Positions 1,291-17,867 of a stretch of 48,795 nt of DNA are shown here, in pieces. The DNA lies in IMG/VR virus record IMGVR_UViG_3300047586_000039, positions 1 through 48,795 of that record; one strand, given 5' to 3'. Position numbers and translations under genes: made by a program. The notes under the pieces were generated by a model that was not told where the DNA came from, did not search any database, and saw nothing but the letters and a program-made list of their open reading frames with translations. The stretch's first letter is position 1, and each line of letters begins with the position of its first letter. This DNA comes from a virus.

Positions 1291-1449
1291 ATGACTGAAT
1301 TCGCTGAAGGTTTATGGGTCTGCGCCGTCATTTTCACCGCGCTTGGTCTCCTGGTCGTGATCCTGTATTGCATTGGAATCCTTTACCGGGGGATCAGGGA
1401 TTGGTTTGAGAATCGAAACAAGGGGATGATCGGAAGGAGGGTTTCATGA
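1291..1449 (+). CDS. Small membrane protein, one helix
   Basis: 52 residues: acidic start, hydrophobic stretch (about residues 9-32, WVCAVIFTALGLLVVILYCIG), then a basic tail ending RNKGMIGRRVS. Its stop overlaps the ATG of the ASCH ghost ORF (ATGA at 1446-1449), so the ghost was once the next gene of the operon. Function unknown. Confidence 0.6.
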   Translation: MTEFAEGLWVCAVIFTALGLLVVILYCIGILYRGIRDWFENRNKGMIGRRVS

Positions 1450-1544
1450 AGGGTCTGATATTCAGCGAACCGATGGTGAAGGCATGGATGGAGGAAAGAA
1501 AGATATACGTTGACATGGTTAATTGCATATGCTATGCTTTATGA
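1446..1544 (+). pseudogene. Ghost 5' end of an ASCH-domain gene
   Basis: The first 19 codons (MKGLIFSEPMVKAWMEERK) match the start of the intact ASCH gene at 2355 (MKGLSFSEAMVKSWLAGNK): 12 of 19 residues and about 65% of bases by my hand alignment. After K19 the similarity stops abruptly and the frame runs into a TGA at 1542. The intact family continues T-V-T-R-R, so the break falls between codons 19 and 20. It keeps a ribosome-binding site (AAGGAGG at 1432-1438) and an ATGA overlap with the gene before. I read it as the severed start of a gene cut by the endonuclease that follows. Confidence 0.7.
1510..1538 (+). promoter_or_regulatory. Promoter carried by the LAGLIDADG cassette
   Basis: TTGACA at 1510-1515, a 17-bp spacer and TATGCT at 1533-1538 (4 of 6 matches to TATAAT). 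It starts within 8 bases of the ghost breakpoint and points at the endonuclease gene. That placement suggests it travelled with the endonuclease, giving expression independent of the recipient operon. Confidence 0.6.
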
Positions 1545-1569
1545 AAATATAATGGCGGGGGGTTGGTAT

Positions 1570-2358
1570 ATGCAAAACTGGCTGAATGGTGATTGGTCTT
1601 ACTTGCTCGGCGTAATTCACGGAGATGGCAATGTGAGCGACCGGTCGATCCGTATTTGCGTCGGGAATAAAGATGCCGATTTCGCGGATATGATTATGTC
1701 GACATGGACGGCACTCGGATTTAATCCGAAGCTATATCACCGGAGAACGGCACTTTCTGTTGAGGTCCATGATATTGCATTGACAAACGCGATACGAAAA
1801 TTCAAGGCGGGTGGCAAATGGAGCGTTCCGGAGGATTTCGATAAGGGCGAATGGCTTGCGGGAGTTTTTGACACGGACGGATGCGTGTCTCTTACTAAGA
1901 GCAAATGTGCCGTGATCCTCGGACTGAAACGCAGCGGGAATCTATTGTTGGTAAAAAGTGCTTTATCTGATGTAGGAATAGGGAATGTAAATATCCGTAA
2001 TTGTGTCAGTAAGTTTCATGGAAAACCCTACCCGATTGAAGTGCTGGGGCTTACAAGTTTCGATAAGATAAGAAAGTTCTCTGAGACTGTTCCGCTGAGG
2101 CATCCCCGCAAAAAGATACGTCTGAACGAAACTCTCGCCCATATTATTCGCGCCCAATCCATAGTCCCTCTATGGAAGCAAGTGGCAAAATGGCTGCATG
2201 AAGGCCCGCACACTTGGCCTGAGATCGCCGATAAATTCTCTCTCACAAAGAGACAGGTGGATAGTTGCTTACAGATGATAAAACAATATGGGAATATTGA
2301 AATTATTCCCCCGCCAAGAATGTTGACAAAATACTTAGTCGCGGAGGCTATAAAATGA
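1570..2358 (+). CDS. LAGLIDADG homing endonuclease
   Basis: A 262-residue monomeric enzyme with both dodecapeptide motifs: YLLGVIHGDG at about 11-20 and WLAGVFDTDG at about 95-104. The acidic residues in GDG and TDG are the metal-binding catalytic pair. A C-terminal segment (about 200-240, HTWPEIADKFSLTKRQVDS) looks like a helix-turn-helix that would add DNA specificity. ATG 1570 is chosen because GGGGGG lies 8 bases upstream and the first motif follows at once; ATG 1552 is possible. The stop overlaps the ASCH start (ATGA), coupling the two. It should cut inside the first 20 codons of ASCH genes lacking the insertion. Confidence 0.9.
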   Translation: MQNWLNGDWSYLLGVIHGDGNVSDRSIRICVGNKDADFADMIMSTWTALGFNPKLYHRRTALSVEVHDIALTNAIRKFKAGGKWSVPEDFDKGEWLAGVFDTDGCVSLTKSKCAVILGLKRSGNLLLVKSALSDVGIGNVNIRNCVSKFHGKPYPIEVLGLTSFDKIRKFSETVPLRHPRKKIRLNETLAHIIRAQSIVPLWKQVAKWLHEGPHTWPEIADKFSLTKRQVDSCLQMIKQYGNIEIIPPPRMLTKYLVAEAIK

Positions 2359-2912
2359 AGGGATTGAGCTTTAGTGAAGCTATGGTTAAATCTTGGCTTG
2401 CCGGGAACAAGACGGTAACGAGGCGGCTGATGAAGCCGCAACCGGATTACATAGATCCGGCACTTGATCTTATCTCAGCAAACGGGAAAGACATCAATCC
2501 CCGCTACCTCCCCGGCGAGACGGTCTATATTCGGGAAAATTTCAGATTGTGCGCCGTCTATGATTCTTATGCTCCAGGACAGATCGACTCCGCCGCCGCT
2601 GTCCTGTGGACAGCGGATGGAGAGAAAAAAGTGAACGGTCCCGAGAAATGGGGAAAGAAGAGATCCGGCCGTTTTATGCCCGAGAAATTCTCCCGGAGTC
2701 ACGCCCTGATCGTCAGCGTGAGGCCGGAGCAGATACGAAGTATCACGCCATTTGAGGCCGCCGAAGAGGGCTGCCCTATGCGGGATAATATTGTTTGCGC
2801 AAATGATATTCTGCGATGGTTTCGGGATCTTTGGGAATCGCTTCACCACGGATCATGGGAACGCAATGAATGGGTCTGGAGGATTGAGTTGGAGGAGGTG
2901 AAAAATGTTTGA
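2355..2912 (+). CDS. Phage ASCH-domain protein
   Basis: 185 residues of the phage ASCH (PUA-like) family: MKGLSFSEAMV, TVTRRLMKPQP near residue 20, YLPGETVYIRENFR around 55, then RPEQIRSITPFEAAEEG and a C-terminal W-rich end (WERNEWVWRIELEEV). ASCH domains are thought to bind RNA or modified bases; the role in phages is not established. It is the intact, regenerated copy of the gene whose start survives at 1446. Translation is coupled to the upstream endonuclease through ATGA. Confidence 0.8.
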   Translation: MKGLSFSEAMVKSWLAGNKTVTRRLMKPQPDYIDPALDLISANGKDINPRYLPGETVYIRENFRLCAVYDSYAPGQIDSAAAVLWTADGEKKVNGPEKWGKKRSGRFMPEKFSRSHALIVSVRPEQIRSITPFEAAEEGCPMRDNIVCANDILRWFRDLWESLHHGSWERNEWVWRIELEEVKNV

Positions 2913-3042
2913 ATGGTATGACTACATTGGATTAGCGATTGCCTTCCTTATTGCCTTATGGCTCATTTTCCATCATGAGGCGCATACCGACAGGCGGAAG
3001 CATTGGAAGGATAGGCGTCAAAAGAAATCAAGGAGGAGATGA
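2905..3042 (+). CDS. Small membrane protein with basic tail
   Basis: 45 residues: one hydrophobic helix (about 8-22, IGLAIAFLIALWLIF), then a strongly basic cytoplasmic tail (HHEAHTDRRKHWKDRRQKKSRRR). GGAGGAGGTG is 5 bases before ATG 2905. It overlaps the ASCH stop region by 8 bases. Function unknown; topology suggests an inner-membrane anchor with a nucleic-acid- or lipid-binding tail. Confidence 0.6.
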   Translation: MFEWYDYIGLAIAFLIALWLIFHHEAHTDRRKHWKDRRQKKSRRR

Positions 3043-3053
3043 GGGGGTGACTC

Positions 3054-3302
3054 ATGGTCCAGACTTCGATCTTCGATCAACCGTCATATCCGCCGAATCC
3101 GTACAAGACCGGCTCTCAAAATTATCGTCTCTACAATCGGATCATGGAAGGTCCGATCACAAACGCGGAAATCATCCGCACGCACGGGATCTTTAATTCG
3201 ACGGGCCGCATAAGTGAGATCCGGGAGTTCCTCGCGCCGCACGGGATCAAACTTCATTGCGAACGGGTGCATGATGGGCTGTTTGAGTACCGGCTTCAAT
3301 AG
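3054..3302 (+). CDS. Winged-helix-like small phage protein
   Basis: 82 residues. QNYRLYNRIMEGPITNAEIIRTHGIFNSTGRISEIREFLAPHGIKL (about residues 22-68) is the common phage helix-turn-helix in which a protein rebuilds itself around a T-x-x-I-x-x-x-x-G-I turn, followed by a short beta wing. Likely a DNA-binding regulator. GGGGG upstream gives the ribosome-binding site. The stop abuts the next GTG. Confidence 0.6.
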   Translation: MVQTSIFDQPSYPPNPYKTGSQNYRLYNRIMEGPITNAEIIRTHGIFNSTGRISEIREFLAPHGIKLHCERVHDGLFEYRLQ

Positions 3303-3560
3303 GTGAGTAAAATGCCGAGAATTACATTCGACACTATCAAGCAAAAAATGAAGGCCCTGAAAGATAAATTCTTTCGGAAGAAAAAGACTCCCGAGACATT
3401 TTACATTTCGCCGAAAAAGAAGCCCCTTGCAATAAAAGTTTCCCGTACCTGCAATCCACCCATCATTGATAGCGCTTTTTACGGGAAGGCCACTTATCGT
3501 CTCTTTATGCGATCCAAGAGGATGAAATTGATAAAGAGACGGAGGTTAATTGCGATATGA
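3303..3560 (+). CDS. Basic hypothetical protein
   Basis: 85 residues, very Lys/Arg-rich (KQKMKALKDKFFRKKK near 15-30; RSKRMKLIKRRR at the end). GTG 3303 directly follows the previous stop; an internal ATG at 3312 is an alternative with GGTGAG before it. No recognised domain. Its stop overlaps the ATG at 3557 of the fused HNH reading frame. Confidence 0.5.
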   Translation: MSKMPRITFDTIKQKMKALKDKFFRKKKTPETFYISPKKKPLAIKVSRTCNPPIIDSAFYGKATYRLFMRSKRMKLIKRRRLIAI

Positions 3561-4309
3561 CGCGCACCTTCATAACGGAAAACGATGTCATGCCCACAAA
3601 GAAATGCGGAAAATGCCAGCAGACGAAGGATCTGGATGATTTTTATGGCTGTAAGTCTGGAAGGTACGGCAAGAGTTCAATCTGTAAGAAGTGTCATCGG
3701 GCCAACGGAAAGGCATGGAATCTGAAAAATCTGGATCATGTTCGACAGAAAGACAAAGAAAGAAGGATCAGGAACAAAGAAAAATTGGACATTCAGCGGG
3801 CGAAATGGAAGGCGCAGAACCCGGCCAAGACAAGGGAAATGCTGCACCAGTGGAGGACAAACAATCCAGATAGGATAAAATTTCTCACGAAAAGATGGAA
3901 GTTAGAGCATCCCGATATATGGAAGGTCTCGCATAGCAGAGCGGTAGCAAAAATCATGGCTACCCCAAACGGAAAATTGCATTGCAGGATTTCCAGATTA
4001 GTAAACCATTGCCTTCATGGACGGAAGGGCTACCAAAAATGGGAGACGCTTGTTGGCTATACCACAGAACAACTCAAGGAGCATCTGGAAAAACAATTCA
4101 CCGAAGGTATGACTTGGGATAATTACGGAGAATGGCATGTTGATCATATAATCCCGAGGGCGGCGTTTAACTTTGAGATTCCAGAGGATATCGATTTCAA
4201 GCGGTGTTGGAGTCTGAAAAATCTCCGCCCGCTGTGGGCAATCGAAAACATAAGCAAGGGGGCGAAACTTAAGAAGCCGTTTCAACCTGCCTTGGCAATA
4301 CAAGCATAG
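3557..4309 (+). CDS. HNH homing endonuclease, fused to a ghost start
   Basis: 250 residues. Two zinc knuckles (C17-x2-C20, C43-x2-C46), a long Lys/Trp-rich helical linker, then the HNH core WHVDHIIP (about 193-200) and NLRPL...N-x-SKG (about 222-236). The second HNH gene at 7838 is a paralogue with the same order. Residues 1-11 (MTRTFITENDV) resemble the start of the next gene (MLRTFIIHDHP) and look like a ghost start captured in frame; the native start may be ATG 3590. Expected role is a free-standing homing nuclease. Confidence 0.85.
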   Translation: MTRTFITENDVMPTKKCGKCQQTKDLDDFYGCKSGRYGKSSICKKCHRANGKAWNLKNLDHVRQKDKERRIRNKEKLDIQRAKWKAQNPAKTREMLHQWRTNNPDRIKFLTKRWKLEHPDIWKVSHSRAVAKIMATPNGKLHCRISRLVNHCLHGRKGYQKWETLVGYTTEQLKEHLEKQFTEGMTWDNYGEWHVDHIIPRAAFNFEIPEDIDFKRCWSLKNLRPLWAIENISKGAKLKKPFQPALAIQA

Positions 4310-4319
4310 AGGCGCATTA

Positions 4320-4493
4320 ATGTTAAGAACTTTCATAATTCACGACCATCCGAACAAACAGGGCTTTGAATGTTACACCGTTAAGACTGACAACGGGAAA
4401 CCATATCTGGACAACGATCCGACGATAACGACAAGCAATGAACTGCGACTGGTGGAGAGGTTGATCCAATGGATTCGGGAAGGGAAACAGTGA
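4320..4493 (+). CDS. Hypothetical protein, regenerated copy
   Basis: 57 residues (MLRTFIIHDHP... ending LVERLIQWIREGKQ), with an amphipathic C-terminal helix. AGAGG sits 7 bases upstream, just after the endonuclease stop. Its first residues share M-x-R-T-F-I with the 5' end at 3557. Function unknown. The stop overlaps the next GTG start. Confidence 0.55.
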   Translation: MLRTFIIHDHPNKQGFECYTVKTDNGKPYLDNDPTITTSNELRLVERLIQWIREGKQ

Positions 4494-4660
4494 ACGAGCA
4501 GATATTACCCGAAGATGTGCGATCATTTATCTATACCGTGACTCTGTTTCTGCAAGCGAACAGGTATAAGACGCCGAAGCAGATGGATGCAATGTTTCAA
4601 ACTGCTTATCGTCTTTATGAAAAGTATGATGTGGAAGGAAGAAGGAAGGTGCCGGAATGA
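4490..4660 (+). CDS. Small hypothetical protein
   Basis: 56 residues from GTG 4490, whose start overlaps the previous stop (GTGA) and has AAGGGA 6 bases before it; ATG 4469 in the same frame would add 7 residues. Mostly helical, with alternating charge (YRLYEKYDVEGRRKVPE). No family recognised. ATGA overlap with the next gene. Confidence 0.5.
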   Translation: MNEQILPEDVRSFIYTVTLFLQANRYKTPKQMDAMFQTAYRLYEKYDVEGRRKVPE

Positions 4661-4782
4661 CCGACGACGAAATCACCGTTGAACCCGTCACCTGCCCGTC
4701 CTGCGATTGGTTCGGGATGTCCGATGACTGTCATTATAACTATTGCCCGAATTGCGGGCGGAGAGTGGTGAGGGAAAAATGA
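4657..4782 (+). CDS. Zinc-ribbon micro-protein
   Basis: 41 residues with CPSC at 13-16 and CPNCGRR at 31-37, a complete four-cysteine ribbon. It overlaps both neighbours by 4 bases (ATGA), typical of translational coupling in this operon. Likely binds nucleic acid or a partner protein. It is one of five such ribbon proteins in the genome. Confidence 0.6.
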   Translation: MTDDEITVEPVTCPSCDWFGMSDDCHYNYCPNCGRRVVREK

Positions 4783-5036
4783 GAGAAGTAAACTTTAGCA
4801 AGAATGTCGAGAAGGCTTCGGATGCGGTTCATGCGGCAACGGGAGATCTTAAAATGGCTCTTCAGCGGGCATATCCCCTCGGGGAATTTGTCCGCGTCAT
4901 CCACCATCGCGGAGAATATACGGGGGTTGTCGTCGGCCATGATGAACACGGAGCGCGGGTTGTCATAGAAAATGACGAATCAGGGAAGGTGTCGCGTCGC
5001 TGGTTTCGGGAAGTGGAAATGGAGATGGATACATGA
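4779..5036 (+). CDS. Hypothetical protein with SH3-like strand pattern
   Basis: 85 residues from ATG 4779 (overlaps the ribbon stop). The second half, GEFVRVIHHRGEYTGVVVGHDEHGARVVIENDESGKVSRRWF, alternates like a small five-stranded SH3/Tudor barrel. N-terminus is helical. It precedes the RecB-like nuclease with a 4-base overlap, so a role near recombination is possible. Function not known. Confidence 0.55.
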   Translation: MREVNFSKNVEKASDAVHAATGDLKMALQRAYPLGEFVRVIHHRGEYTGVVVGHDEHGARVVIENDESGKVSRRWFREVEMEMDT

Positions 5037-5575
5037 CCCGCCCCCGTGTCACCGAGATTCTTTCCCCCTACTCGGATTTCTCGAAGATCCCGCCGGATGT
5101 CCTTCAGGCGGCAGCTGAGAGAGGAACGGAGGTTCATGCAGCGTGCGCGGCGTATGCCCATAATCTCTGGTTGCCGGTCCCTGATGAACTTGACGGCTAT
5201 TTGCGATCGTTCAAGGCATGGTTTGATCGCTACGTCGTCGAAGTCCTCGCCGTCGAGGAGGAGGTCGTTCATCCGGCTTTCGGGTACATCGGGCATGTGG
5301 ACCTCATCGCAACGGTGGCCGGAATCCGCCCAAAACAGACGGTAGCAGTGGTTGATTTCAAAAGTCCGGCTGTTGCTTCACGTTCCTGGAATTGTCAAAT
5401 AGCGGCTTACCTGGAGGCATCAAGGGAACGATACGGAACGGAGGTCGCCGGGGCGCTCATGCTGAAAGCCGACGGGTCTCTACCAAAAATGATTTGGCTT
5501 GAGGATGGCAATCAGGCGTTTAATGCTTTCACGGGGATTTTGAGCGGTTTTAATTACCTGAAAGGGGGGAAATGA
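5033..5575 (+). CDS. RecB/Cas4-like PD-(D/E)XK exonuclease
   Basis: 180 residues. RGTEVHAACAAY (about 30-41) carries the upstream histidine, GHVDLIA (about 87-93) the first metal aspartate, and VVDFKS (about 105-110) the D-x-K signature, with QIAAYLEA after it: the usual order in phage RecB-family nucleases. It would resect double-stranded ends to give single strands for the RecT/Bet annealing protein encoded 3 kb downstream. Both neighbours overlap it by 4 bases. Confidence 0.8.
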   Translation: MTRPRVTEILSPYSDFSKIPPDVLQAAAERGTEVHAACAAYAHNLWLPVPDELDGYLRSFKAWFDRYVVEVLAVEEEVVHPAFGYIGHVDLIATVAGIRPKQTVAVVDFKSPAVASRSWNCQIAAYLEASRERYGTEVAGALMLKADGSLPKMIWLEDGNQAFNAFTGILSGFNYLKGGK

Positions 5576-5862
5576 TGAGGGAAAAGCAAGCGTCACAAGA
5601 AACGGTCAATGCCTTTATGAAGGCTGTTTATCCCGAAATGACCGAACTGGCGGTTACGATGGGCAGCGAGGAAACAATACTTAATGATGCCACAAAATTG
5701 ATCGCCACGCTGGGGGCCGCCCTCTTGTCGAGCCTGACATTGCAGAGCCACTACGCAAAACTGCTCAATCAGTATGACGGAGGCAACCGTAAGGGATTCC
5801 ATGCGGTTGATAAATGGATTGAACGCCTTAGAGAATGTGGAGAATTGAAAGGGAAGGGGTAA
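5572..5862 (+). CDS. Hypothetical protein between nuclease and coiled-coil gene
   Basis: 96 residues, helical, no signature. Two adjacent ATGs at 5572 and 5575; the first overlaps the nuclease stop. Its place inside the recombination cassette suggests an accessory role, but nothing in the sequence proves it. Confidence 0.55.
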   Translation: MMREKQASQETVNAFMKAVYPEMTELAVTMGSEETILNDATKLIATLGAALLSSLTLQSHYAKLLNQYDGGNRKGFHAVDKWIERLRECGELKGKG

Positions 5863-5865
5863 AAT

Positions 5866-6768
5866 ATGGGAGAAGCATTGGATTTTGACAGCATCGGAGA
5901 GGAAACGGCGGTCGATCTTGAAAAAGAACGGGACGAAAGGGGCATGACGCTCATGTATGACCTGGAGGCCATAAAACCGAAATTCGCAGACTATCGTTTC
6001 GAGGCCGCCCGGATCTGGCATGATGCGAAGTTCTTGACGGTCACGGATCAGGAAAGCCTCAACATCGCCGTCATGCTCGGAGGGAACGCGAAGAAGATCG
6101 GGAAGGCAATCGAGGCCGAACGGAAACGGATCATCCTGGAGCCTGCCGAGTTTGTCAAGGGCGTGAACGGGATCTGCAAGATGATCACCGATTCCCTGGA
6201 CGAAGCCGAAGTGACGGTCAAGGAGAAGATCCGGATTCATAACACCCGTGTCGAACTTGAGCGCCGAGAGGCCGAGCGGAAGGCGCGGGAAGCCACGGAA
6301 GCCCTGCAAAGGAAGCTACAGGCCGAGGCGGATGAAGCGAATCGAAAAGCACAAGCGGAGGCGCGGGCCAGAGTCGAAGAGGAGCAGCGGATTAAGCGGG
6401 AGAAGGAAGCGGCGGAGGCCAGGGAACGCGGGGCGAAGGCGGCGGAATTGAAGGCCCTTGCGGAGAAGGCGGAAAAAGAACGGCTTGAAGCGGTTCGGAA
6501 GGCCGAAGAGGAGGCCAAAAAGATCGAGGTTATCGCGCCGACGGTGGTCGCCCCGGTGGTTCAAGAGGCGGCAAGAGTAACCCGAACGGAGAGCGGATCG
6601 GCCTCACAGCGGCGGGTCTGGACGTACGAGGTCTTGAGCGAGGCGGCTGTGCCTCGGGAATTCTTTTCGTTGAACGAACAGAAAATAAGGGATGCGATCA
6701 AGATGGGGACGCGTGCGATCAGCGGCGTGCGGATTTTTGAGGAAACAAAAACGGTTTTCAGGACATAG
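5866..6768 (+). CDS. Long coiled-coil protein of the recombination cassette
   Basis: 300 residues. Residues about 1-110 form a mixed helical domain; 115-220 are an uninterrupted Glu/Arg/Lys/Ala coiled coil (repeats like EAERKAREA, EEEQRIKREKEA); the C-terminus (about 248-298, VPREFFSLNEQKIRDAIKMGTRAISGVRIFEE) is a small conserved domain seen at the end of many phage proteins in the same position. It may scaffold the exonuclease and annealing protein. No enzymatic motif is present. A strong ribosome-binding site (AAGGGG) precedes ATG 5866. Confidence 0.65.
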   Translation: MGEALDFDSIGEETAVDLEKERDERGMTLMYDLEAIKPKFADYRFEAARIWHDAKFLTVTDQESLNIAVMLGGNAKKIGKAIEAERKRIILEPAEFVKGVNGICKMITDSLDEAEVTVKEKIRIHNTRVELERREAERKAREATEALQRKLQAEADEANRKAQAEARARVEEEQRIKREKEAAEARERGAKAAELKALAEKAEKERLEAVRKAEEEAKKIEVIAPTVVAPVVQEAARVTRTESGSASQRRVWTYEVLSEAAVPREFFSLNEQKIRDAIKMGTRAISGVRIFEETKTVFRT

Positions 6769-6779
6769 GAGGGAGAGAA

Positions 6780-7046: not shown

Positions 7047-7062
7047 AAAGGGGAAGGGGATT

Positions 7063-7326: not shown

Positions 7327-7345
7327 CAAGAAAGGGGAAGGGGTT

Positions 7346-7546: not shown

Positions 7547-7569
7547 CGGAGAGAAAGGGGAGGGGGAAG

Positions 7570-7776: not shown

Positions 7777-7793
7777 CAGAGGGAGGGGAATTT

Positions 7794-7835
7794 ATGGAAA
7801 AAGCGTTAGCAACACAGGCGGAACAGAAGGAGTAG
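7794..7835 (+). pseudogene. Ghost 5' end of a recT/bet gene
   Basis: A 13-codon ORF (MEKALATQAEQKE then TAG) with GAGGGAGGGG upstream. It shares ATQ and EQKE with the first 15 residues of the intact recombinase at 8480 (MATQNLPAVSTEQKE), and 9 bases (gcaacacag) are identical. The HNH endonuclease starts 3 bases after its stop. The break corresponds to codon 15/16 of the intact gene. Confidence 0.6.
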
Positions 7836-7837
7836 CG

Positions 7838-8476
7838 ATGGAAGAGAAGCGGTGCACGAAGTGTGGGAATATTAAGGCGTTATCTGAATTTTACACAGGC
7901 GCGAGGTATGCAGGTGGGATACGCAGCAGGTGTAAGAATTGTATGAAAACAGGACAGGCGGAAGGTCATAAGGCATGGAAGGTTGAAAACGCCCAGGCCG
8001 TCACGGAATACAACCGGGCTTGGTATGCCGAAAATGGAATCAATTATCATAAAAAATGGCGCGGAGAGAACCGGGAGAAAGTGAATCTTGCCGGTCGGAA
8101 AAACCAAGGTAAAAAAAGAAGTACCGTAAAGGGAAAGCTAAACGACAACCTATCCCGCGCCGTCAGACAGTCATTGAGAAGCGGAACAAAGGCAAGGTGC
8201 CGATGGGAGGACCTTGTCGGCTACACGGTTGACCAACTGAAAGCCCATCTTGAAAAACTCTTTACTCTCGAAATGTCATGGGAAAACTATGGGACATTTT
8301 GGGAAATCGACCATCGGATTCCGATAGCGGCACATAACTTTGAAAGTCCAAACGATCCAGACTTCAAGAAGTGCTGGGCACTGAAAAACCTTCGGCCTCT
8401 GGAAATCATAAAGAACCGAAGCAAGCACGACAAGGTCGAACGTCCCTTTCAACCATCATTGACAATAGGAGGATAG
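7838..8476 (+). CDS. HNH homing endonuclease in the recT/bet start
   Basis: 212 residues, paralogous to 3557-4309: two zinc knuckles (C6-x2-C9, C32-x2-C35), a Lys-rich linker, a W-x-D-L-VGYT-x-DQLKAHLEKLF helix, then the core WEIDHRIPI and CWALKNLRPLEIIKNRSK. It starts 3 bases after the ghost stop, so it probably uses translational reinitiation from the ghost. Its final codons supply AGGAGG for the recombinase start at 8480. Likely target: the first 45 bases of recT-type genes. Confidence 0.85.
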   Translation: MEEKRCTKCGNIKALSEFYTGARYAGGIRSRCKNCMKTGQAEGHKAWKVENAQAVTEYNRAWYAENGINYHKKWRGENREKVNLAGRKNQGKKRSTVKGKLNDNLSRAVRQSLRSGTKARCRWEDLVGYTVDQLKAHLEKLFTLEMSWENYGTFWEIDHRIPIAAHNFESPNDPDFKKCWALKNLRPLEIIKNRSKHDKVERPFQPSLTIGG

Positions 8477-8479
8477 CGT

Positions 8480-9484
8480 ATGGCAACACAGAATCTACCC
8501 GCAGTCAGTACCGAGCAAAAAGAAATTATCTATACCGCAGCCGACGGCAACGAAATAAAACTCACGCCCGATATGGTCAGAAAATATTTAGTGCAAGGGC
8601 ATGGCGAGATGGTGACAACACAAGAAATGGTGTTTTTTCTTAATGTCTGCAAATCAAGAAAACTCAACCCCCTGATTCGTGACTGCTATTTGATCAAGTA
8701 TTCGGCATCTGACCCCGCCGCAATCGTTACCAGTGTTGATTTCTTCCGCAAGCGGGCGCGGGCGCAAAAGGATTGCAAGGGATGGAAATCCGGTATCATC
8801 GTCGAGGACCGAGAGGGAAAGGTCCGGGATACTGCTGGATTGTTCCGAGACGGTGAAAAGCTCCTCGGCGGATGGTTCGAGGCGAAACCGGACGGCTGGA
8901 CGGACCCTCTCCGGCTCGAGGTCAATCTTCGAGGGTATGTAAAAAAGAAGAGCGATGGCAGCGTGACCCGTTTCTGGTCCCCGGATAACCAACCCTCGCA
9001 GATCATGAAGGTGGCCGAATCGCAAGGACTCCGGAAGTTATGGCCGGATGAATTCCAGGGGATCTATTCGGAAGAGGAAATCACGCAGCAGGACAGGAAC
9101 GGCGCGGTTGACGTTATCACCGAAGACAAACCAGACCTTTCTGCATCCGTCGCTGAGTTCGACAAGGCGACCACCGATAAGGGGCTCATGGAGAAATATG
9201 TCACCGTCGCCGCAAAGCACTTCAAAAAATCCCCGGAAGAGATCAAGGCCGAGGCCATGAAGGACCTTCCCGGATTCCTCACGGCTTATGAGAAGTGGGC
9301 GGCGCTCTATATGCAGAAGGAAGCCCTGAAGAAGAAGGCGGCAGAACCAAAAAAGAATGTTGATGCGCTGACAGGAATGGAACTGGCCCCCGGCCCCTGC
9401 CCGAACCGCGAGGATAAGGAAATCATGACCGTACAATTCTGCGGGGAGTGCAAACAAAAAGAGGGCTGCCCGGTCTGGGGATGA
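8480..9484 (+). CDS. bet: Single-strand annealing recombinase, Redbeta/RecT family
   Basis: 334 residues. FLNVCKSRKLNPLIRDCYLIKY (about residues 53-74), SVDFFRKRARAQ (about 90) and YVKKKSDGSVTRFWSPDNQ (about 155) are signature stretches of the Bet/RecT core, which anneals complementary single strands during phage recombination. The C-terminal 70 residues are a coiled linker and a CPNREDKE...CGECKQKEGCPVW zinc-binding tail. Partner nuclease is the RecB-like gene at 5033. Start ATG 8480 has AGGAGG inside the endonuclease stop region. Confidence 0.9.
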   Translation: MATQNLPAVSTEQKEIIYTAADGNEIKLTPDMVRKYLVQGHGEMVTTQEMVFFLNVCKSRKLNPLIRDCYLIKYSASDPAAIVTSVDFFRKRARAQKDCKGWKSGIIVEDREGKVRDTAGLFRDGEKLLGGWFEAKPDGWTDPLRLEVNLRGYVKKKSDGSVTRFWSPDNQPSQIMKVAESQGLRKLWPDEFQGIYSEEEITQQDRNGAVDVITEDKPDLSASVAEFDKATTDKGLMEKYVTVAAKHFKKSPEEIKAEAMKDLPGFLTAYEKWAALYMQKEALKKKAAEPKKNVDALTGMELAPGPCPNREDKEIMTVQFCGECKQKEGCPVWG

Positions 9485-9908: not shown

Positions 9909-10045
9909 TCTACACCGGCGCGACAGGGGTTTTTGCATTTGGACGATTTGGTCCGAGCTGCCCAGATACCGCGAGGTCTGGGGCGCACCTTTTGGGCGTA
10001 GACACAGCTCGGGCCTTTTATTGTGCCCGAAGCAAAGCAGTCTAA
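9905..10045 (+). CDS. Possible 46-residue ORF over the structured RNA
   Basis: ATG 9905 overlaps the previous stop (ATGA) and stays open to 10045. The product (MIYTGATGVFAFGRFGP... ending ARSKAV) has no known domain. Because the same DNA folds into a compact three-way junction, an RNA role is at least as likely as a protein. Low confidence as a gene. Confidence 0.25.
   Translation: MIYTGATGVFAFGRFGPSCPDTARSGAHLLGVDTARAFYCARSKAV
9950..10015 (+). ncRNA. Structured RNA element: three-way junction before an HNH gene
   Basis: P1 pairs 9950-9960 with 10005-10015 (11 bp, one G-U). P2 pairs CCCAGA 9961-9966 with TCTGGG 9977-9982. P3 pairs 9984-9989 with 9994-9998, with one bulged A and a TTTT loop. 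Junction strands are 0, 1 and 6 bases. TTTTATT follows, so P1 could act as a terminator-like stem. CGGGC (10009-10013) can instead pair with GCCCG (10025-10029), a mutually exclusive fold. It lies 50 bases before the HNH gene. No known riboswitch or ribozyme core was recognised. Confidence 0.45.
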
Positions 10046-10064
10046 ACCAAAAGGAGGTTACACC

Positions 10065-11352: not shown

Positions 11353-11366
11353 GATCGAGGTGAAGC

Positions 11367-11579: not shown

Positions 11580-11608
11580 ACACTTAACGAGAAAGGAGAA
11601 GGGGAATT

Positions 11609-11773: not shown

Positions 11774-11779
11774 ATTGAG

Positions 11780-12073: not shown

Positions 12074-12079
12074 CAGGCC

Positions 12080-12705: not shown

Positions 12706-12760
12706 AAGGCCGTATGAACATTTAGAAGGTTAACAGTAGGGTAAAGTTCAAAGGAGCATC

Positions 12761-13225: not shown

Positions 13226-13236
13226 TCTCGCTATGA
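12976..13236 (+). CDS. Hypothetical protein, -1 frame continuation of the ParB-like ORF
   Basis: 86 residues from GTG 12976 (GAAGGCGG nearby). VFDVSIQGSSIRDYLLRAGFVSWKANQKVPTHRDLLRVVWND has ordinary composition and ends with ...TKKEVISL. It does not resemble ParB, so it looks like the tail of a different gene brought next to the ParB start. It could be produced as an independent protein or by a -1 shift. No family recognised. Confidence 0.5.
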   Translation: MFDVSIQGSSIRDYLLRAGFVSWKANQKVPTHRDLLRVVWNDPRHKISIQKHCLFRLTDKKDPEGNAVLWFDGKANLGTKKEVISL

Positions 13237-13265
13237 AGACCGCATGGGGTGGTGGCTGGTATTAG
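13233..13265 (+). CDS. 10-residue ORF with a perfect Shine-Dalgarno site
   Basis: MKTAWGGGWY followed by TAG. Bases 13216-13227 (AAGGAGGTGATC) are fully complementary to the conserved 3' end of 16S rRNA, the strongest SD in the window, and ATG 13233 is 5 bases on. A small perfect hairpin (GTGGCT 13252-13257 with AGCCAC 13264-13269) covers the stop. Leader peptide or ribosome-trap are both possible. It is the last rightward reading frame before the terminator. Confidence 0.35.
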   Translation: MKTAWGGGWY

Positions 13266-13275
13266 CCACAAAAAA

Positions 13276-13298
13276 GGCGGGGGTGAAATTCCCCCGCC
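13276..13298 (-). terminator. Rho-independent terminator of the leftward operon
   Basis: GGCGGGGG (13276-13283) pairs with CCCCCGCC (13291-13298) over a 7-base loop. On the minus strand the stem is followed by TTTTTT, the classic U-tract, so it ends transcription of the three leftward genes. On the plus strand the stem is followed by CCTTAAAAGG, a weaker end for the rightward early operon. Confidence 0.85.
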
Positions 13299-13322
13299 CC
13301 TTAAAAGGAGATTATGAACCGA

Positions 13323-13532
13323 TCAATTCAAAATGTGAATCCGCCATTCTTCCGGCGTCCCCTCGATCCGGGTGATCCGGTAGGGGATACCGTTGATTTT
13401 CGCCATATCCGGCGATTTGGCCGAGAAATAGCGATCCTTCCGGGGGTTGCGCTTGGTGCTGATGATCTTCTTTTTTCCGGCGACAACCTGGGCGAACACC
13501 TCCGGCGTGAGGGTGATGGTGAGGGGGGTCAT
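13323..13532 (-). CDS. Small ASCH/PUA-like protein (leftward operon)
   Basis: 69 residues: ITLTPEVFAQVVAGKKKIISTKRNPRKDRYFSAKSPDMAKINGIPYRITRIEG. The early strand followed by V-x-x-G-K-K and a later short strand resemble a minimal ASCH/PUA fold, but this is tentative. It overlaps the upstream leftward gene by 4 bases. Last gene of the operon, just before the terminator. Confidence 0.65.
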   Translation of the reverse strand: MTPLTITLTPEVFAQVVAGKKKIISTKRNPRKDRYFSAKSPDMAKINGIPYRITRIEGTPEEWRIHILN

Positions 13533-13798
13533 GGCTTCACCGCCTTCCGTGGCCTTCCGCCCTTCCGCCCGTTCTCGCGGGAACTGGCGGCCTTGCGATC
13601 CGATTTCACCGATCCAAGGGCGGCGGCGGCGTTAGATATGGGATCGGTAAGGACGCCCATGATCGACACAGCCTCGTTGCGTAACCGCTGCTCCGGTTTA
13701 TCGCTGGCAACGACAAGATTTTCAATTTCCTTGAGACGCCTCCTTAATTTTGACATCTCCCCGGCTTTTGCTAATTGCCTAATTTCCATGCTCTTCAT
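13529..13798 (-). CDS. Small DNA-binding-like protein with GRP tail
   Basis: 89 residues: a helical N-terminal part with coiled-coil features (SKLRRRLKEIENLVVASD) and a tail KAASSRENGRKGGRPRK. This Ala-Ala-Ser-x-x-Asn-Gly-Lys/Arg-Lys-Gly-Gly-Arg-Pro tail is widespread in small bacterial and phage proteins and has an AT-hook-like GRP core. Probably binds DNA in the minor groove. AAAGGA precedes ATG 13798. Confidence 0.7.
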   Translation of the reverse strand: MKSMEIRQLAKAGEMSKLRRRLKEIENLVVASDKPEQRLRNEAVSIMGVLTDPISNAAAALGSVKSDRKAASSRENGRKGGRPRKAVKP

Positions 13799-13820
13799 TT
13801 CTCGGATCCTTTCTCCCCGG

Positions 13821-14024
13821 TTATCGGGGCGTCCCCATCATGACGGTGGGGCGGTTAATGTATTCCAGGGCCTTTGCGGTCGTCCCGGCGCTTTCCGTCG
13901 TCCGTTCGCGCGTCCCCTCTTTGGCGGTCCAGGTATCGCCGCCGCCGTAAATCATGTGCTGATTCTTTTTCAGATCCAGGCCAAAAACAAAACCGTAATC
14001 CTTGTTAATTTCGAGCGCCTTCAT
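13821..14024 (-). CDS. First gene of the leftward operon
   Basis: 67 residues (MKALEINKDYGFVFGLDLKKNQHMIYGGGDTWTAKEG...). AGGAGGTAAGGAAA precedes the ATG on the minus strand, a strong site. No domain recognised. It is transcribed from the consensus promoter at 14072-14100, so it would be expressed strongly and early or constitutively. Confidence 0.65.
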   Translation of the reverse strand: MKALEINKDYGFVFGLDLKKNQHMIYGGGDTWTAKEGTRERTTESAGTTAKALEYINRPTVMMGTPR

Positions 14025-14071
14025 TTTCCTTACCTCCTGTTTTATTTTGGTTTTGTCTCTCTGTTGGCTCT

Positions 14072-14100
14072 AATATATATCCTATCGTTTGGTTTGTCAA
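14072..14100 (-). promoter_or_regulatory. Consensus sigma-70 promoter of the leftward operon
   Basis: On the minus strand TTGACA (14100-14095), a 17-bp spacer (14094-14078) and TATATT (14077-14072). Perfect -35, near-perfect -10 (5 of 6). It fires away from the terminase operon. Just beyond it lies the left arm of an 11-bp inverted repeat, so it may be repressed by a factor bridging this and the opposite promoter region. Confidence 0.85.
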
Positions 14101-14102
14101 GG

Positions 14103-14171
14103 ATTATTTTCATATTTCTCATTTTGCAAGGGTGCGAAATCATTATGATTGTTAAAATAAATGAAAATAAT
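14103..14171. promoter_or_regulatory. 11-bp inverted-repeat pair in the divergent control region
   Basis: ATTATTTTCAT (14103-14113) and ATGAAAATAAT (14161-14171) are exact reverse complements, 47 bp apart, flanking the space between the two opposed transcription units. Such a pair can hold two dimers that loop the DNA, or a long RNA stem. An imperfect dyad (ATTTTGCA...TGCGAAAT, 14121-14140) lies between the arms. The leftward -35 ends 2 bases before the left arm. Confidence 0.55.
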
Positions 14172-14180
14172 TTTACGGGC

Positions 14181-14226
14181 TGCGCAAAAAAGGCGCAAAA
14201 ATCAGGTAAAATAGAACGAATGTTCT
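14181..14226 (+). promoter_or_regulatory. Late-operon control site with LexA-like box
   Basis: TGCGC (14181-14185) and GCGCA (14193-14197) form a dyad with a 7-base centre. TAAAAT (14207-14212) could be a -10 for the terminase operon. Directly after it AGAAC-GAAT-GTTCT (14213-14226) is a perfect palindrome containing GAAC-N4-GTTC, the Gram-positive-type LexA consensus. If LexA binds there, DNA damage would open the late operon. No good -35 is seen 17 bp upstream of TAAAAT (GCAAAA instead), so an activator may be needed. Confidence 0.45.
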
Positions 14227-14240
14227 AAAGGCGGTGAACT

Positions 14241-14777
14241 ATGGCACGCGGCGGATATAGGCCAAACTCTGGACCAAAAAAAGGTGCAAAATACAGGCCA
14301 AGGAAGAGGAAGGAACCGAAAGAACCGAAGCCGGACAGGAAAGAAAAAGCTCCACCCGATACCAGCGACGCCGACAAGATCCGTCAAATGCTGGCGATGG
14401 GTACGAAGGTCCGCGCGCGGATGAATCAGGAATTCCTCCAGCGGGTGGGCCGGGGGGAGAAGCTTACCCTGGCCGAAAAGAAGATGATGGAGAAGATCGG
14501 CGCGGAACTGGCCGCAGAGGTGAACGGGGAGAAGGCGCCGGTCACCGTTGACGGCAAGATTGAGACGCCCCTGGAATTCATGCTACGGATCATGAACGAC
14601 CCAAACGAGCCGGAGGAGTTCAGGGCGCGGATGGCGTGCGCCGCCGCCCCGTTCATGCACCCCCGCAAGGGTGAAGGGGCAGGCAAAAAAGAGGAGAAAA
14701 ACGTGCGGGCTAAGACGGCGGGAGCTGGGCGGTTTCGGGCCTCGGCTCCTCCTCAGTTGAAGGTGGTGGGGAAATGA
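14241..14777 (+). CDS. terS: Terminase small subunit
   Basis: 178 residues. The basic N-terminus (MARGGYRPNSGPKKGAKYRPRKR) followed by TPLEFMLRIMNDPNEPEEFRARMACAAAPFMHPRKGE (about residues 114-150) is the pattern of TerS proteins paired with TerL of the YmfN/HK97-like group. It binds the packaging initiation site and stimulates the large subunit. ATG 14241 follows AAAGGCGG. It is first in the late operon and overlaps the zinc-finger gene by 4 bases. Confidence 0.8.
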   Translation: MARGGYRPNSGPKKGAKYRPRKRKEPKEPKPDRKEKAPPDTSDADKIRQMLAMGTKVRARMNQEFLQRVGRGEKLTLAEKKMMEKIGAELAAEVNGEKAPVTVDGKIETPLEFMLRIMNDPNEPEEFRARMACAAAPFMHPRKGEGAGKKEEKNVRAKTAGAGRFRASAPPQLKVVGK

Positions 14778-14929
14778 AGGCAAAAACGAAAAGGTGTATC
14801 GGCTGCGGAAGAGAAAAGTCTGTCGCATCGTTTATTTGCAATAAGGAAATCGGGTTTTATTCTCCCCACTGCAAGCGATGCGCGAAGGGAATCATTACAA
14901 ATAAGACAAGGTTTCGGGAAACAAAATGA
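14774..14929 (+). CDS. Zinc-finger micro-protein between terminase subunits
   Basis: 51 residues: CIGCG (8-12) and CKRCAKG (33-39) form a four-cysteine finger. It overlaps both terminase genes by 4 bases, so it is co-translated with them and may assist packaging or bind the pac site. No established family. Confidence 0.6.
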   Translation: MKAKTKRCIGCGREKSVASFICNKEIGFYSPHCKRCAKGIITNKTRFRETK

Positions 14930-16659
14930 CCTGGCAAACGTCCTGCAAAGACTGGGAATCCCGCGTCCTGAAAGGTGAAAGCCTTATCTCCTTTCCGCCG
15001 CTGTTCCCTCAAGAGGCCGCCGAAGCCCTGGCTGTCTTCAAGGAACTTCACCTGGTCGATGTCCTGAACAGGCCGAATTTTGGTGAAGCGGGTCGCCCTT
15101 GGCTATTTGATTTCGTCGGGTCTATCTTCGGCGCTTACGATCCGGGGCCGGATTACGGGGGAACGGAAGAGAATGCCGGTCGTCGGATGATAACAAACTT
15201 CTTTCTGTTGGTATCAAAAAAGAACTCCAAGAGTACAACGGCGGCCGGGATCATGATGACGGCTCTGATTCGTAACTGGCGGGAGTCTGCAGAATTTCTG
15301 ATCATCGCGCCGACTGTGGAGATCGCCCAGAATTCATTTTCCCCGGCGCGGGACATGGTACGGGCCGACGAGGAACTTTCGGATATATTCTTGATTCAAG
15401 AACATTATCGGCAAATTACGGATAGACGAAACGGGGCCGTCCTGAAAGTCGTCGCTGCTGACAACGAAACCGTGGGCGGAAAGAAAGCCACGGGGATCCT
15501 GGTGGATGAGTTATGGCAATTCGGCAAGAAGCAAAATGCAGGCAATATGTTTCTTGAGGCGGAGGGCGGTTTAGCTTCTCGGCCGGAGGGGTTTGTAATT
15601 TACATTTCAACGCAATCCGATGAAGCCCCTGTTGGAATCTTCGCGGAAAAGCTCGACTATGCCCGCGGCGTCCGGGACGGCCGGATAAAAGACAATAAGT
15701 TCCTCCCGGTTATTTATGAATTTCCTGAGTCTTTCCTGAAAGATAAAAAATATCTCGATCAAAAGTATTGGTTTGTCACAAATCCGAACCTTGGCGCGTC
15801 GGTCGACGAGGCATACGTCCTGCATAAATTCAAACAAGCCCAGGAGGGCGGGGATCAATCCATGTGGGGCTTTCTGTCGAAACATTTGAATGTGCAGATA
15901 GCGATGTCCATTCGGGCGCAAAATTGGGCAGGTTCCGACTTCTGGGAAGCGGCCGCAGGTACTGTCACTTTCGACCTGATCCTGGAGAAATCCGATGTGG
16001 TTGTGATCGGCATCGACGGTGGCGGATTGGATGACCTTCTCGGACTGGCCGTCCTGGGCCGGGACGCCGAGAATGGGAACTGGTTACTCTGGACCGTCGC
16101 TTGGTGTAATCCGATTGCCCTTGAGCGGCGCAAATCCGAAGCATCGAAATACCGTGACTTTGAGAAGGATGGCGACCTGATCATCGTGAAAGAGATCGGG
16201 CAGGATATCCGGCAGGCGGGGGACGTCGTTCGGAAATGCGAAGCCTCTGGACTTCTCGACCGGATCGGGGTGGACCAGGCGGGGATCGGGGCGATTGCGG
16301 ATGAAATCGAGGCCGGCGACGAAAAGGGTGAAGGGGCGATCGAGCATGACCGGATCGTCGGGATCCCCCAAGGGTGGCGCTTGAACGGCGCAATTAAGAC
16401 CTTAGAACGCAAGGTGGCGGAAAAATCCCTGATTCATGGTGGGCAACCTCTTATGGCCTGGTGCGTTGGAAATGCGAAAGTTGAACCGAGGGGGAACGCG
16501 ATCAGTATCACGAAGCAGGCCAGCGGGACCGGGAAGATCGATCCCTTGATGGCGGTATTCGATGCCGTGGCCCTGATGGCCATGAATCCGGAGGCGCGGG
16601 GGCAGTCCGCTTATGCCGGTATGACTGCGGAAGAAATCAAACAACGTATGGCGTTTTAA
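14926..16659 (+). CDS. terL: Terminase large subunit
   Basis: 577 residues. The ATPase part has the P-loop variant LVSKKNSKSTT (about 95-105), the ILVDELW Walker B (about 191-197) and IYISTQSD coupling motif (about 225). The C-terminal nuclease has VVIGIDGGGLDDLLG (about 360-375), VDQAGIG and the final acid around DPLMAVFDA. Translocates DNA into the prohead and cuts it. Length fits the Terminase_1/YmfN group. ATGA overlap with the zinc-finger gene. Confidence 0.95.
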   Translation: MTWQTSCKDWESRVLKGESLISFPPLFPQEAAEALAVFKELHLVDVLNRPNFGEAGRPWLFDFVGSIFGAYDPGPDYGGTEENAGRRMITNFFLLVSKKNSKSTTAAGIMMTALIRNWRESAEFLIIAPTVEIAQNSFSPARDMVRADEELSDIFLIQEHYRQITDRRNGAVLKVVAADNETVGGKKATGILVDELWQFGKKQNAGNMFLEAEGGLASRPEGFVIYISTQSDEAPVGIFAEKLDYARGVRDGRIKDNKFLPVIYEFPESFLKDKKYLDQKYWFVTNPNLGASVDEAYVLHKFKQAQEGGDQSMWGFLSKHLNVQIAMSIRAQNWAGSDFWEAAAGTVTFDLILEKSDVVVIGIDGGGLDDLLGLAVLGRDAENGNWLLWTVAWCNPIALERRKSEASKYRDFEKDGDLIIVKEIGQDIRQAGDVVRKCEASGLLDRIGVDQAGIGAIADEIEAGDEKGEGAIEHDRIVGIPQGWRLNGAIKTLERKVAEKSLIHGGQPLMAWCVGNAKVEPRGNAISITKQASGTGKIDPLMAVFDAVALMAMNPEARGQSAYAGMTAEEIKQRMAF

Positions 16660-16668
16660 GGAGGAGCC

Positions 16669-16836
16669 ATGGGCAACAAAACAAGGTTGTTCAAATTGGC
16701 CCGTAAGAAAATCAGGACGGAACGAAACGCGATAGTCCGAAAATCCGTGTCTGACGTCTTGGCCTTGCCGTTTTGGGATCGGTTTAAGATTGGCGTCAAC
16801 ATGATGTTTAACAGACCAATATTCAAGACGGATTGA
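16669..16836 (+). CDS. Small basic protein
   Basis: 55 residues, with AAGGAGGAG before ATG 16669. Arg/Lys-rich first half (TRLFKLARKKIRTERNAIVRKS), then an amphipathic stretch (LALPFWDRFKIGVNMMFNRPIFKTD). No family. Follows terL by 9 bases. Confidence 0.5.
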   Translation: MGNKTRLFKLARKKIRTERNAIVRKSVSDVLALPFWDRFKIGVNMMFNRPIFKTD

Positions 16837-16846
16837 AGGAGACCCC

Positions 16847-16921
16847 ATGACCACGTTACCCGCAAAAGAATTGCTCCGCCCTGATGAAGTGGCGGACAGC
16901 AGGCACTTTGGACCTGTATAA
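16847..16921 (+). pseudogene. Ghost 5' end of an excisionase-type HTH gene
   Basis: 24 codons then TAA: MTTLPAKELLRPDEVAD followed by unrelated residues. The intact gene at 17673 starts MNTLPDLPDKKLLRVSEAAAYF. M-x-TLP, K-x-LLR, E and A align, and LLRPDEVAD is what the helix-turn-helix_17 family shows at this position. Similarity stops near codon 17. AAGGAG lies upstream, so it is still a good start. I read it as the severed beginning of the gene replaced by the copy at 17673. Confidence 0.55.
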
Positions 16922-16936
16922 TAATGCACAAATCGC

Positions 16937-16965
16937 TTGACTTGATTTCTTACCTATGGTAAGTA
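16937..16965 (+). promoter_or_regulatory. Promoter/operator of the GIY-YIG cassette
   Basis: TTGACT at 16937-16942 is a good -35. The -10 is poor (TAAGTA at 16960-16965 after a 17-bp spacer). A perfect dyad CTTACC-TAT-GGTAAG (16949-16963) covers the spacer and -10, so it looks like an operator with steric repression. It stands between the ghost and the zinc-ribbon gene and probably came with the cassette. Confidence 0.55.
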
Positions 16966-16984
16966 AGAATTAAGGAGGCAAGCC

Positions 16985-17113
16985 ATGAAGATAAAAACCT
17001 TGAAGTGTGTGAAATGCAAGCACGAATGGATTCCCCGAATATGGCCGGTAAAGATGTGCCCACGGTGCAAAACCTATTACTGGCAAGCGCCGAAGGGGAA
17101 GGTGAAGAAATGA
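16985..17113 (+). CDS. Zinc-ribbon micro-protein of the GIY-YIG cassette
   Basis: 42 residues: CVKCKHEW (8-15) and CPRCKTYYW (25-33) form a ribbon of the kind MKIKTLKCVKCKHEWIPRI... found alone in many phages. AAGGAGG upstream. It ends in the ATGA overlap with the GIY-YIG gene, so the two are co-translated and may work together, for example as target-recognition partner. Confidence 0.65.
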   Translation: MKIKTLKCVKCKHEWIPRIWPVKMCPRCKTYYWQAPKGKVKK

Positions 17114-17676
17114 TAATCGACGAAAAGAAACTTGAGCGGATGATTGAGGATGCTGTCAAGAAACGCATGGCCGATGATGTCTATAAACTCGCCCGCGACA
17201 GCATCAAGGCGCATATCGAGTGTATCATACAAGGGGAATTATTTCACAAAATGAGGGCAAAGGTCGAGGAAGTAACCGAAATGCTCTATGATGAAAGGCT
17301 CGATAGCCGGATTTCAACGGCGGTCCGGAAACACTTCCCGCCAAGCATAATCTACGTTCACGAGTCCCGCCAACCGCCGCCGCAGCTTTTGCCTTTCGGC
17401 GTGAAGGAATGCTTCATTGCGCCGACGCGCCCATGTGTTTACTTTTTATGTAAAGACGACAGGATTGTTTATATCGGACAATCGGTCAACCTTTCGACAA
17501 GGTTAGGGGCGCACGTTCTCGGTAAAAACTTTGACAGAGTTTTCTATATGGACGTTTCAAGAGAAGACCTTAATCGGGTAGAAATAGAATTGATCGAGTA
17601 TTATGACCCGGAATATAACGCCACTGGATTCAGCAGGCGTTTCAAAAAACCGCTCAATGAGAGGCAAAGACGATGA
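17110..17676 (+). CDS. GIY-YIG endonuclease with N-terminal helical extension
   Basis: 188 residues from ATG 17110 (an upstream in-frame start at 17005 is out of context). Residues 1-100 are helical, then the nuclease: VYFLCKDD (about 110-117), RIVYIGQS (about 118-125), LSTRLGAHV (about 128-136) with the conserved Arg, and the late Glu in EIELIEYYD. It makes a one-metal cut. The order, nuclease at the C-terminus and possible DNA-binding at the N-terminus, is reversed relative to I-TevI. Stop overlaps the HTH start by 4 bases. Confidence 0.85.
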   Translation: MIIDEKKLERMIEDAVKKRMADDVYKLARDSIKAHIECIIQGELFHKMRAKVEEVTEMLYDERLDSRISTAVRKHFPPSIIYVHESRQPPPQLLPFGVKECFIAPTRPCVYFLCKDDRIVYIGQSVNLSTRLGAHVLGKNFDRVFYMDVSREDLNRVEIELIEYYDPEYNATGFSRRFKKPLNERQRR

Positions 17677-17867
17677 ACACACTTCCCGACCTTCCCGACA
17701 AAAAACTCTTGCGGGTATCCGAAGCCGCCGCATATTTCGGCGTTGATGAAAGCACAATCCGCCGATGGATCGACCACGGGAAACTTGAGGCGGAGAAACC
17801 AGTCGGAACGGTGTTTATATCCCGTGAGTCAATCAAAAACTTCCGACTTTCTGGCCATGACCATTAA
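17673..17867 (+). CDS. Excisionase/MerR-type helix-turn-helix protein
   Basis: 64 residues. KLLRVSEAAAYFGVDESTIRRWIDHGKLEAEKPVGTVFISRESIKNF is a complete HTH_17 (winged helix, excisionase/MerR-like) domain. Such proteins bend DNA or repress promoters. Three tandem 10-bp repeats lie 15 bases after its stop and are a plausible binding array. It is the intact copy of the gene whose ghost start is at 16847. Confidence 0.8.
   Translation: MNTLPDLPDKKLLRVSEAAAYFGVDESTIRRWIDHGKLEAEKPVGTVFISRESIKNFRLSGHDH

Follow-up and report, generated by a model that had tools for sequence, protein, structure and literature searches.

The window analysed here is the whole of IMG/VR virus record IMGVR_UViG_3300047586_000039 (48,795 bases). 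Four loci within it share one order: a short gene start of 10-19 codons, then a homing endonuclease gene (HEG), then a complete gene that opens with a homologue of the short start. The short severed start before the HEG is termed a ghost, and L-numbers denote the contigs of relatives used for comparison. Searches of Pfam and PHROGs assigned the endonucleases to LAGLIDADG (one), EndoVII/HNH-like (two) and GIY-YIG (one). The features of the four loci are as follows.

1446..1502, plus strand: ASCH ghost start of 19 codons, with the Shine-Dalgarno sequence GGAGGG just upstream; homologous to the start at 2355 (65% nucleotide identity over 19 codons)
1510..1538, plus strand: sigma-70-like promoter, TTGACA-17-TATGCT, directly 3′ of the ASCH ghost (consensus match only)
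1570..2358, plus strand: LAGLIDADG endonuclease gene, its frame open from 1510 (Pfam LAGLIDADG_3, E = 3.6e-11)
2355..2912, plus strand: regenerated, complete ASCH-like gene, in ATGA overlap with the HEG stop (phrog_874, E = 7e-37)
3557..3586, plus strand: small-gene ghost start of about 10 codons, in frame with the endonuclease (alignment to the start at 4320)
3590..4309, plus strand: EndoVII/HNH-like endonuclease (phrog_1035, E = 1.3e-22)
4320..4493, plus strand: complete small gene of unknown function (57 aa)
7794..7835, plus strand: recT ghost start, 13 codons and a stop, with the HEG start 2 nt after (alignment to the start at 8480)
7838..8476, plus strand: EndoVII/HNH-like endonuclease (phrog_1035, E = 2e-13)
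8480..9484, plus strand: complete recT (Pfam RecT, E = 2.5e-27)
16847..16897, plus strand: HTH ghost start of 17 codons (alignment to the start at 17673)
16985..17113, plus strand: zinc-ribbon open reading frame (ORF) of 42 aa, its stop overlapping the GIY-YIG start (direct reading)
17110..17676, plus strand: GIY-YIG endonuclease (Pfam GIY-YIG, E = 2e-5; a 60% identical relative occupies the same place in L104)
17673..17867, plus strand: complete HTH_17 gene, in ATGA overlap with the HEG stop (Pfam HTH_17, E = 1.9e-10)

A first-pass annotation of the window had described these four loci, and both the layout and all of its coordinates proved correct. It had also placed the enzymes in three families. 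That assignment holds, with the qualification that the two HNH proteins (3590-4309 and 7838-8476) are 45% identical to one another, so that two of the four enzymes are related. The name ASCH is likewise the label of the first-pass annotation; Pfam gave no match for the 2355..2912 protein and PHROGs places it in a family of unknown function. Homologues of this ASCH-like gene occur in 284 phage records. A ribbon like that of the ORF at 16985..17113 is present in the HEGs of L035 and L122.

The paired starts can be compared directly. The ASCH ghost reads MKGLIFSEPMVKAWMEERK (1446) and the intact start MKGLSFSEAMVKSWLAGNK (2355); the small-gene pair is MTRTFITEND (3557) and MLRTFIIHDH (4320); at recT the ghost, MEKALATQAEQKE followed by a stop codon (7794), pairs with MATQNLPAVSTEQKE (8480), and at HTH MTTLPAKELLRPDEVAD (16847) pairs with MNTLPDLPDKKLLRVSEAAA (17673). 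Each match was set against a null of 1318 other gene starts at both protein and DNA level. At protein level, ASCH, HTH and recT all gave p <1/1318, recT only when gaps were cheap, and the small gene gave p = 0.0015. At DNA level the values were <1/1318 for ASCH, 0.018 for recT, 0.08 for HTH and 0.23 for the small gene. A stricter alignment anchored at the start codon scored 62 for ASCH, 41 for HTH, 35 for the small gene and 19 for recT (p = 0.56), making recT the weakest locus by this test. In support of recT, 15 of 17 DNA positions match between ghost and gene (one gap, one mismatch). On these alignments we judge homology to be very strong for ASCH and moderate for recT and the small gene. 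The HTH ghost is homologous to its gene start, but relatives suggest that it may be a decayed paralogue.

The ghosts might also be read as the 5′ exons of a spliced gene, whether around a group I or II intron carrying a HEG or as the exteins flanking an intein; introns with an HNH gene and a short N-terminal exon are known from phages (PMC10448857). Here the downstream gene repeats the start rather than continuing it, the frames are separate and ghosts carry stop codons, and we find this reading scarcely credible. No Rfam intron family was detected in window positions 1-20100 or in nine relatives, and no conserved ribozyme core was found there. An intein was rejected as a candidate since the ghost frames stop before or at the endonuclease start; the small-gene ghost is the exception, being in frame, but its endonuclease stops before the gene.

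Recurrence was surveyed in depth for the EndoVII/HNH family. Relatives of these endonucleases were taken from IMG/VR and genomes, and the start of the gene behind each was compared with the sequence in front. Cases were counted per endonuclease cluster at a score of at least 40, with 1055 non-endonuclease middle genes in the same DNA as controls. The layout was found in 9/106 clusters. Three special cases were removed for a strict count (L150, a tandem endonuclease pair; L164, an antisense C-terminal tail; L104, an HTH paralogue pair), leaving 6/103 clusters as against 1/1055 control genes (Fisher's test, p = 3e-6). Without the window's own loci, the count was 4/100 (p = 2e-4). The layout is real, but is a minority state found in about 5% of clusters. 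Outside the window it lies at the head-protease gene with three different endonucleases (L105, equivalent to L017; L092; L110), at the large terminase gene (L122) and at a gene of unknown function encoding 285 aa (L035). The L105-type arrangement is present in eight contigs. A scan for GIY-YIG relatives yielded one, and a LAGLIDADG scan yielded none, likewise none among named phages; the recurrence survey therefore rests on the EndoVII/HNH family. Ghost peptides used as search queries returned no usable matches, and two further HEG junctions in the window (19261 and 10065) showed no ghost in the anchored alignment.

These counts bear on the notion that the ghosts are leader peptides with no relation to the gene behind, or resemble it by chance. 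It draws on the shortness of the recT and small-gene ghosts and on the failure of recT in the anchored test; set against it, the enrichment over control genes and the per-locus p values leave it very improbable. For the small gene taken by itself, such a reading could still hold. Pure chance as the source of the pattern was rejected on the nulls and the control genes.

Endonuclease-free relatives of the protease, terminase and ASCH genes have a single start that the ghost resembles, as the first-pass annotation had predicted, and none of them has both starts. At the protease, L096, L099 and L100 have the same portal gene, with 45-48% identity to its L107 counterpart, and behind it a single-start protease, with neither endonuclease nor ghost. 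The protease N-terminus in these three, MKIEHKIFEAEVKAFDDE, spans the content of the ghosts MKMEHKTFAAEVGE, MKMEYKTFEAEVKE and MKIERKVFAAEVKEFDEG. At the terminase, a single start with no related endonuclease before it is found in L201-L207, L209 and L210. The core of the L122 ghost, FIEQLTVPSG, is that of these HEG-free relatives; four HEG-free terminases match the ghost at 15/20 aa, and the regenerated start of L122 matches it at 13/20. For ASCH, phages PA8 and Mx8 and one genome match have a single start that runs past the ghost end into TVTRR or TMTRR, and the window's ghost matches the PA8 and Mx8 starts up to the RK before TVTRR.

A layout like that of the donor postulated by the first-pass annotation, with the enzyme upstream of its target, was also recovered. 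Between the small (TerS) and large (TerL) terminase subunit genes, both L208 and L212 encode a relative of the L122 endonuclease (47% and 42% identity, respectively), and neither has a ghost. The start of the L208 endonuclease gene overlaps the stop of TerS, and part of the 5′ region of the L122 HEG matches that of L212. A separate observation concerns the same junction in the window, where a 51-aa zinc-ribbon ORF (14774-14929) lies between the small and large terminase genes and looks like the stump of an EndoVII/HNH endonuclease; this is the junction that holds intact endonucleases in L208, L212 and L122.

Local duplication offers a different route to two starts: a target start, or a tandem paralogue, would have been doubled, one copy decaying and an endonuclease inserting between. 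It is prompted by the near-complete second HTH gene in two relatives. In L104 an endonuclease of the same GIY-YIG type lies between two complete HTH genes, and in L034 two HTH copies surround a non-endonuclease ORF; because of these copies the HTH case is ambiguous. Elsewhere the data speak against duplication. Over nine loci, the same codon is used at only 27/69 residues identical between ghost and regenerated start, which indicates that the ghosts are not recent local copies. The G+C content of third codon positions (GC3) is higher in the ghost than in the regenerated start in 8/8 untied cases, a difference in one direction. Moreover, the HEG-free protease and terminase relatives have one start, and the gene bodies are chimeric (see below). 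We regard local duplication as quite unlikely. The composition supports a ghost with the recipient's GC-rich third positions and a regenerated start with the AT-rich ones of a donor. Independently of this, comparison of window positions 16400-18000 with L034 and L104 shows that related phages have two copies of the HTH gene in front of the portal, separated by different genes.

The target genes in relatives are mosaics, with the right-hand crossover inside the gene. This part of the first-pass model was borne out, whereas its claim that the whole target gene is replaced was not, since the exchange covers only about the first 30-250 codons. In the N-terminal part of TerL (columns 1-110), L122 groups with the HEG-carrying L208 and L212 (support 98/96; 96% of bootstrap trees). 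In the C-terminal part (275-480) no bootstrap tree (0%) recovers this grouping, and constraining the tree to it lowers the log-likelihood by 24.7 units. The ghost and C-terminal half of L122 group instead with HEG-free phages, and identity profiles agree with the trees. The proteases of L105/L017 and L092 are 100% identical over most of the gene from about codon 158 (one patch of about 180 bp excepted); between L017 and L092 the first 158 codons are about 50-78% identical and the endonuclease about 25-80%, with the ghosts and first endonuclease codons nearly the same. For L105/L017 against L092, identity across HEG bodies and the N-terminal 158 codons is about 45-78%. Within the L105 family, the block of HEG and target is common to members and the sequence upstream of the ghost differs. 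Changepoints in GC content (p<=0.025) lie within the gene at codons 74-87 in recT, 144 in L105, 31-41 in L092, 165-227 in L110 and 240-247 in L122, as against 0/8 window control genes; the L096 value was left out as it runs past the gene. In recT the first 74-87 codons or so are AT-rich, GC rising from 0.42 to 0.56 (p = 0.01). The ghost-free L208 terminase also has a within-gene GC break. Co-conversion of flanking sequence is seen here as its outcome, mosaic target genes in relatives, and not as an event.

We consider one-sided homing repair, in which one end is resolved by a crossover within the gene and the other is joined close to the cut, to be the best explanation of these data, and a probable one. 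The cassette would pair a free-standing endonuclease gene with the 5′ portion of its target gene. Donor phages would have the endonuclease gene immediately upstream of the target, and mixed infection would bring together such a donor and a HEG-free homologue, which is predicted to be cut within about its first 25 codons. Repair of the putative double-strand break near the ghost end would then copy the endonuclease gene together with the N-terminal coding part from the donor, whose length in the mosaic genes runs from tens of codons to about 250, before crossing over to the recipient inside the gene body. On the ghost side there is little homology, and the copy would be joined near the cut; the junctions are present in the genomes and the route to them is our proposal. 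The recipient's ribosome site, start codon and first codons would stay behind as the ghost. The target would thereby be regenerated as a working chimera, with a start that is presumably no longer cuttable. Once formed, a ghost could supply the left-hand homology in subsequent rounds of ordinary homing.

A composite element moving by precise, two-sided homing would explain the same layout with no illegitimate joining: HEG and built-in spare start would form one unit, with the ghost and upstream gene on one side and the gene body on the other as homology arms. Different HEGs stop at the same protease ghost codon (codon 14 in L105 and L092) and share their first 12 or so codons, and L109 and L107 differ only in the ghost and first HEG codons, as if these had been used in recombination. 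However, the ghost-free donor layouts of L208 and L212 exist, so the ghost is not a fixed part of the element, and the N-terminal segment exchanged ranges in length from tens of codons to about 250. We hold this alternative to be improbable, if the most serious of those considered.

Several points weigh against one-sided repair. About 94% of the other HEG clusters have no ghost, and the contigs of relatives are metagenomic assemblies. The collections searched held no close HEG-free relative of the window's four loci, only distant ASCH genes, so the mechanism is argued from sister cases. For recT, one viral contig had a relative at 44%, without HEG or ghost; named phages had only distant ones, and there were none in genome contigs or in 155 genomes of one class. 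(The same 155 genomes gave two weak ASCH matches, one with a single start.) The HTH locus in relatives has two HTH copies with or without an endonuclease between. In the approximately unbiased (AU) test of the forced terminase C-terminal grouping, p was 0.07, which is not below 0.05. The changepoint test found no composition break in the ASCH and small genes, and among the window loci the break is confined to recT.

The first-pass annotation saw the severed start as a record of the cut. A start is indeed left behind, but it is probably not just a scar: a Shine-Dalgarno-like stretch is kept at the ghost in 9/9 loci, along with the start codon, and several ghosts overlap or abut the HEG start. 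The ghost stop overlaps it (GTGA or ATGA) in L105, L092 and L110; at recT a gap of 2 nt separates them, and at the small gene ghost and HEG are in frame. Our hypothesis, drawn from this arrangement, is that the ghost probably acts as the translation start of the HEG, or as a translational coupler, unless the cassette has its own promoter. Loci with a longer gap between ghost and HEG (ASCH, HTH, L035, L122) have a -35-like motif and a palindrome after the ghost. Such -35-like motifs with short palindromes just after the ghost occur at 1510-1538 and 16937-16965 and in L035 and L122 (e.g. CTTACCTATGGTAAG, ACCTATAGGT, ATGTATGATACAT), and are possibly repressor-controlled cassette promoters.

The first-pass annotation knew of no such system. 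In the literature searched, which left subscription papers mostly outside, we found no phage report of start- or end-duplicating or regenerating insertions; the principle is nevertheless established in fungal mitochondria, where mobile ORFs with terminal duplications occur in Allomyces atp6 and Glomus atp6, atp9, cox2 and nad3 (PMC3630166). There, too, an endonuclease ORF lies in a gene, a foreign end regenerates a hybrid gene and the native end is stranded beyond the endonuclease (PMC3630166). Regeneration of the gene by a foreign end is found in an N-terminal version at L105, L092, L110, L122 and in the window. The fungal elements replace and duplicate the C-terminus, whereas in the window the start is duplicated, with capture of the ribosome site, in phages, and ghost-free donors are seen. 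In Tremella, the 5′ end of introns duplicates the following exon (PMC7315562). The start-regenerating phage form thus appears to be undescribed, the fungal C-terminal form being already known. A C-terminal form is seen in L164, L069 and probably L059: in L164 the C-terminal end is duplicated (2837-2954 and 3764-3881; 118 bp, about 90% identical) around an endonuclease antisense to its target, and in L069 (2624-2759 and 3835-3957) the tail of a gp23-like capsid gene is repeated beyond an HNH endonuclease gene.

Among phages, the elements share with free-standing HEGs a known homing endonuclease family, the lack of an intron and, in protease and terminase relatives, HEG-free alleles. T4 segG is a free-standing HEG directly upstream of its target, gene 32, and T-even phages show co-conversion of flanks (PMC2988022). 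We checked segG for a gene 32 ghost and there is none; gene 59 ends next to the segG start. Free-standing enzymes are stated to cut at a distance of hundreds or thousands of bases (PMC2988022), whereas the junctions here suggest a predicted cut within about 25 codons of the start. One-sided, illegitimate homing of T4 introns, with microhomology junctions and extensive co-conversion (PMC2988022), is alike in having homology on one side only and a microhomology junction on the other; it was studied with intron donors lacking one exon, whereas the present case is deduced from natural genomes. MobE, as cited in PMC2988022, splits nrdA of phage Aeh1 into a gene in pieces. It is likewise a HEG inside a gene that stays functional, but nrdA stays in two pieces, while here the gene is made whole by a second start.

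In this way an essential phage gene could be invaded by a selfish endonuclease and yet survive, with no need for splicing. Each ghost would mark the predicted cut site of uncharacterised homing enzymes, whose targets could then be read from genomes, predicted cut sites and predicted resistant alleles both being present in sequence. The process would also account for the abruptly mosaic N-termini of terminases, head proteases and recombinases. Whether it amounts to a widespread, as yet unnamed phage strategy, in which intergenic endonucleases are predicted to cleave, in rival phages, the opening codons of the gene that follows them, secure their own expression by capturing its ribosome site and start, and supply it with a foreign, cut-proof front, we would put at about even chances. 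If so, HNH, LAGLIDADG and GIY-YIG enzymes would each have arrived independently at nature's equivalent of a rescue-type homing gene drive, and the strategy would promote N-terminal mosaicism in the capsid, packaging and recombination genes of phages.

Further observations in the window concern other loci. A match resembling c4-2 RNA (9949-10018; E = 0.006, below the curated cut-off) lies upstream of an HNH gene. The ORF at 36447-37055 had no Pfam match; by eye it resembles a Vsr/EDxHD-type nuclease with a NUMOD-like start and is possibly another homing gene. Finally, 44832-45461 contains a tandem paralogous stretch, MAGTTPGTYDELWLWAYN and MAGTTPGTFDEIWLWAQN.

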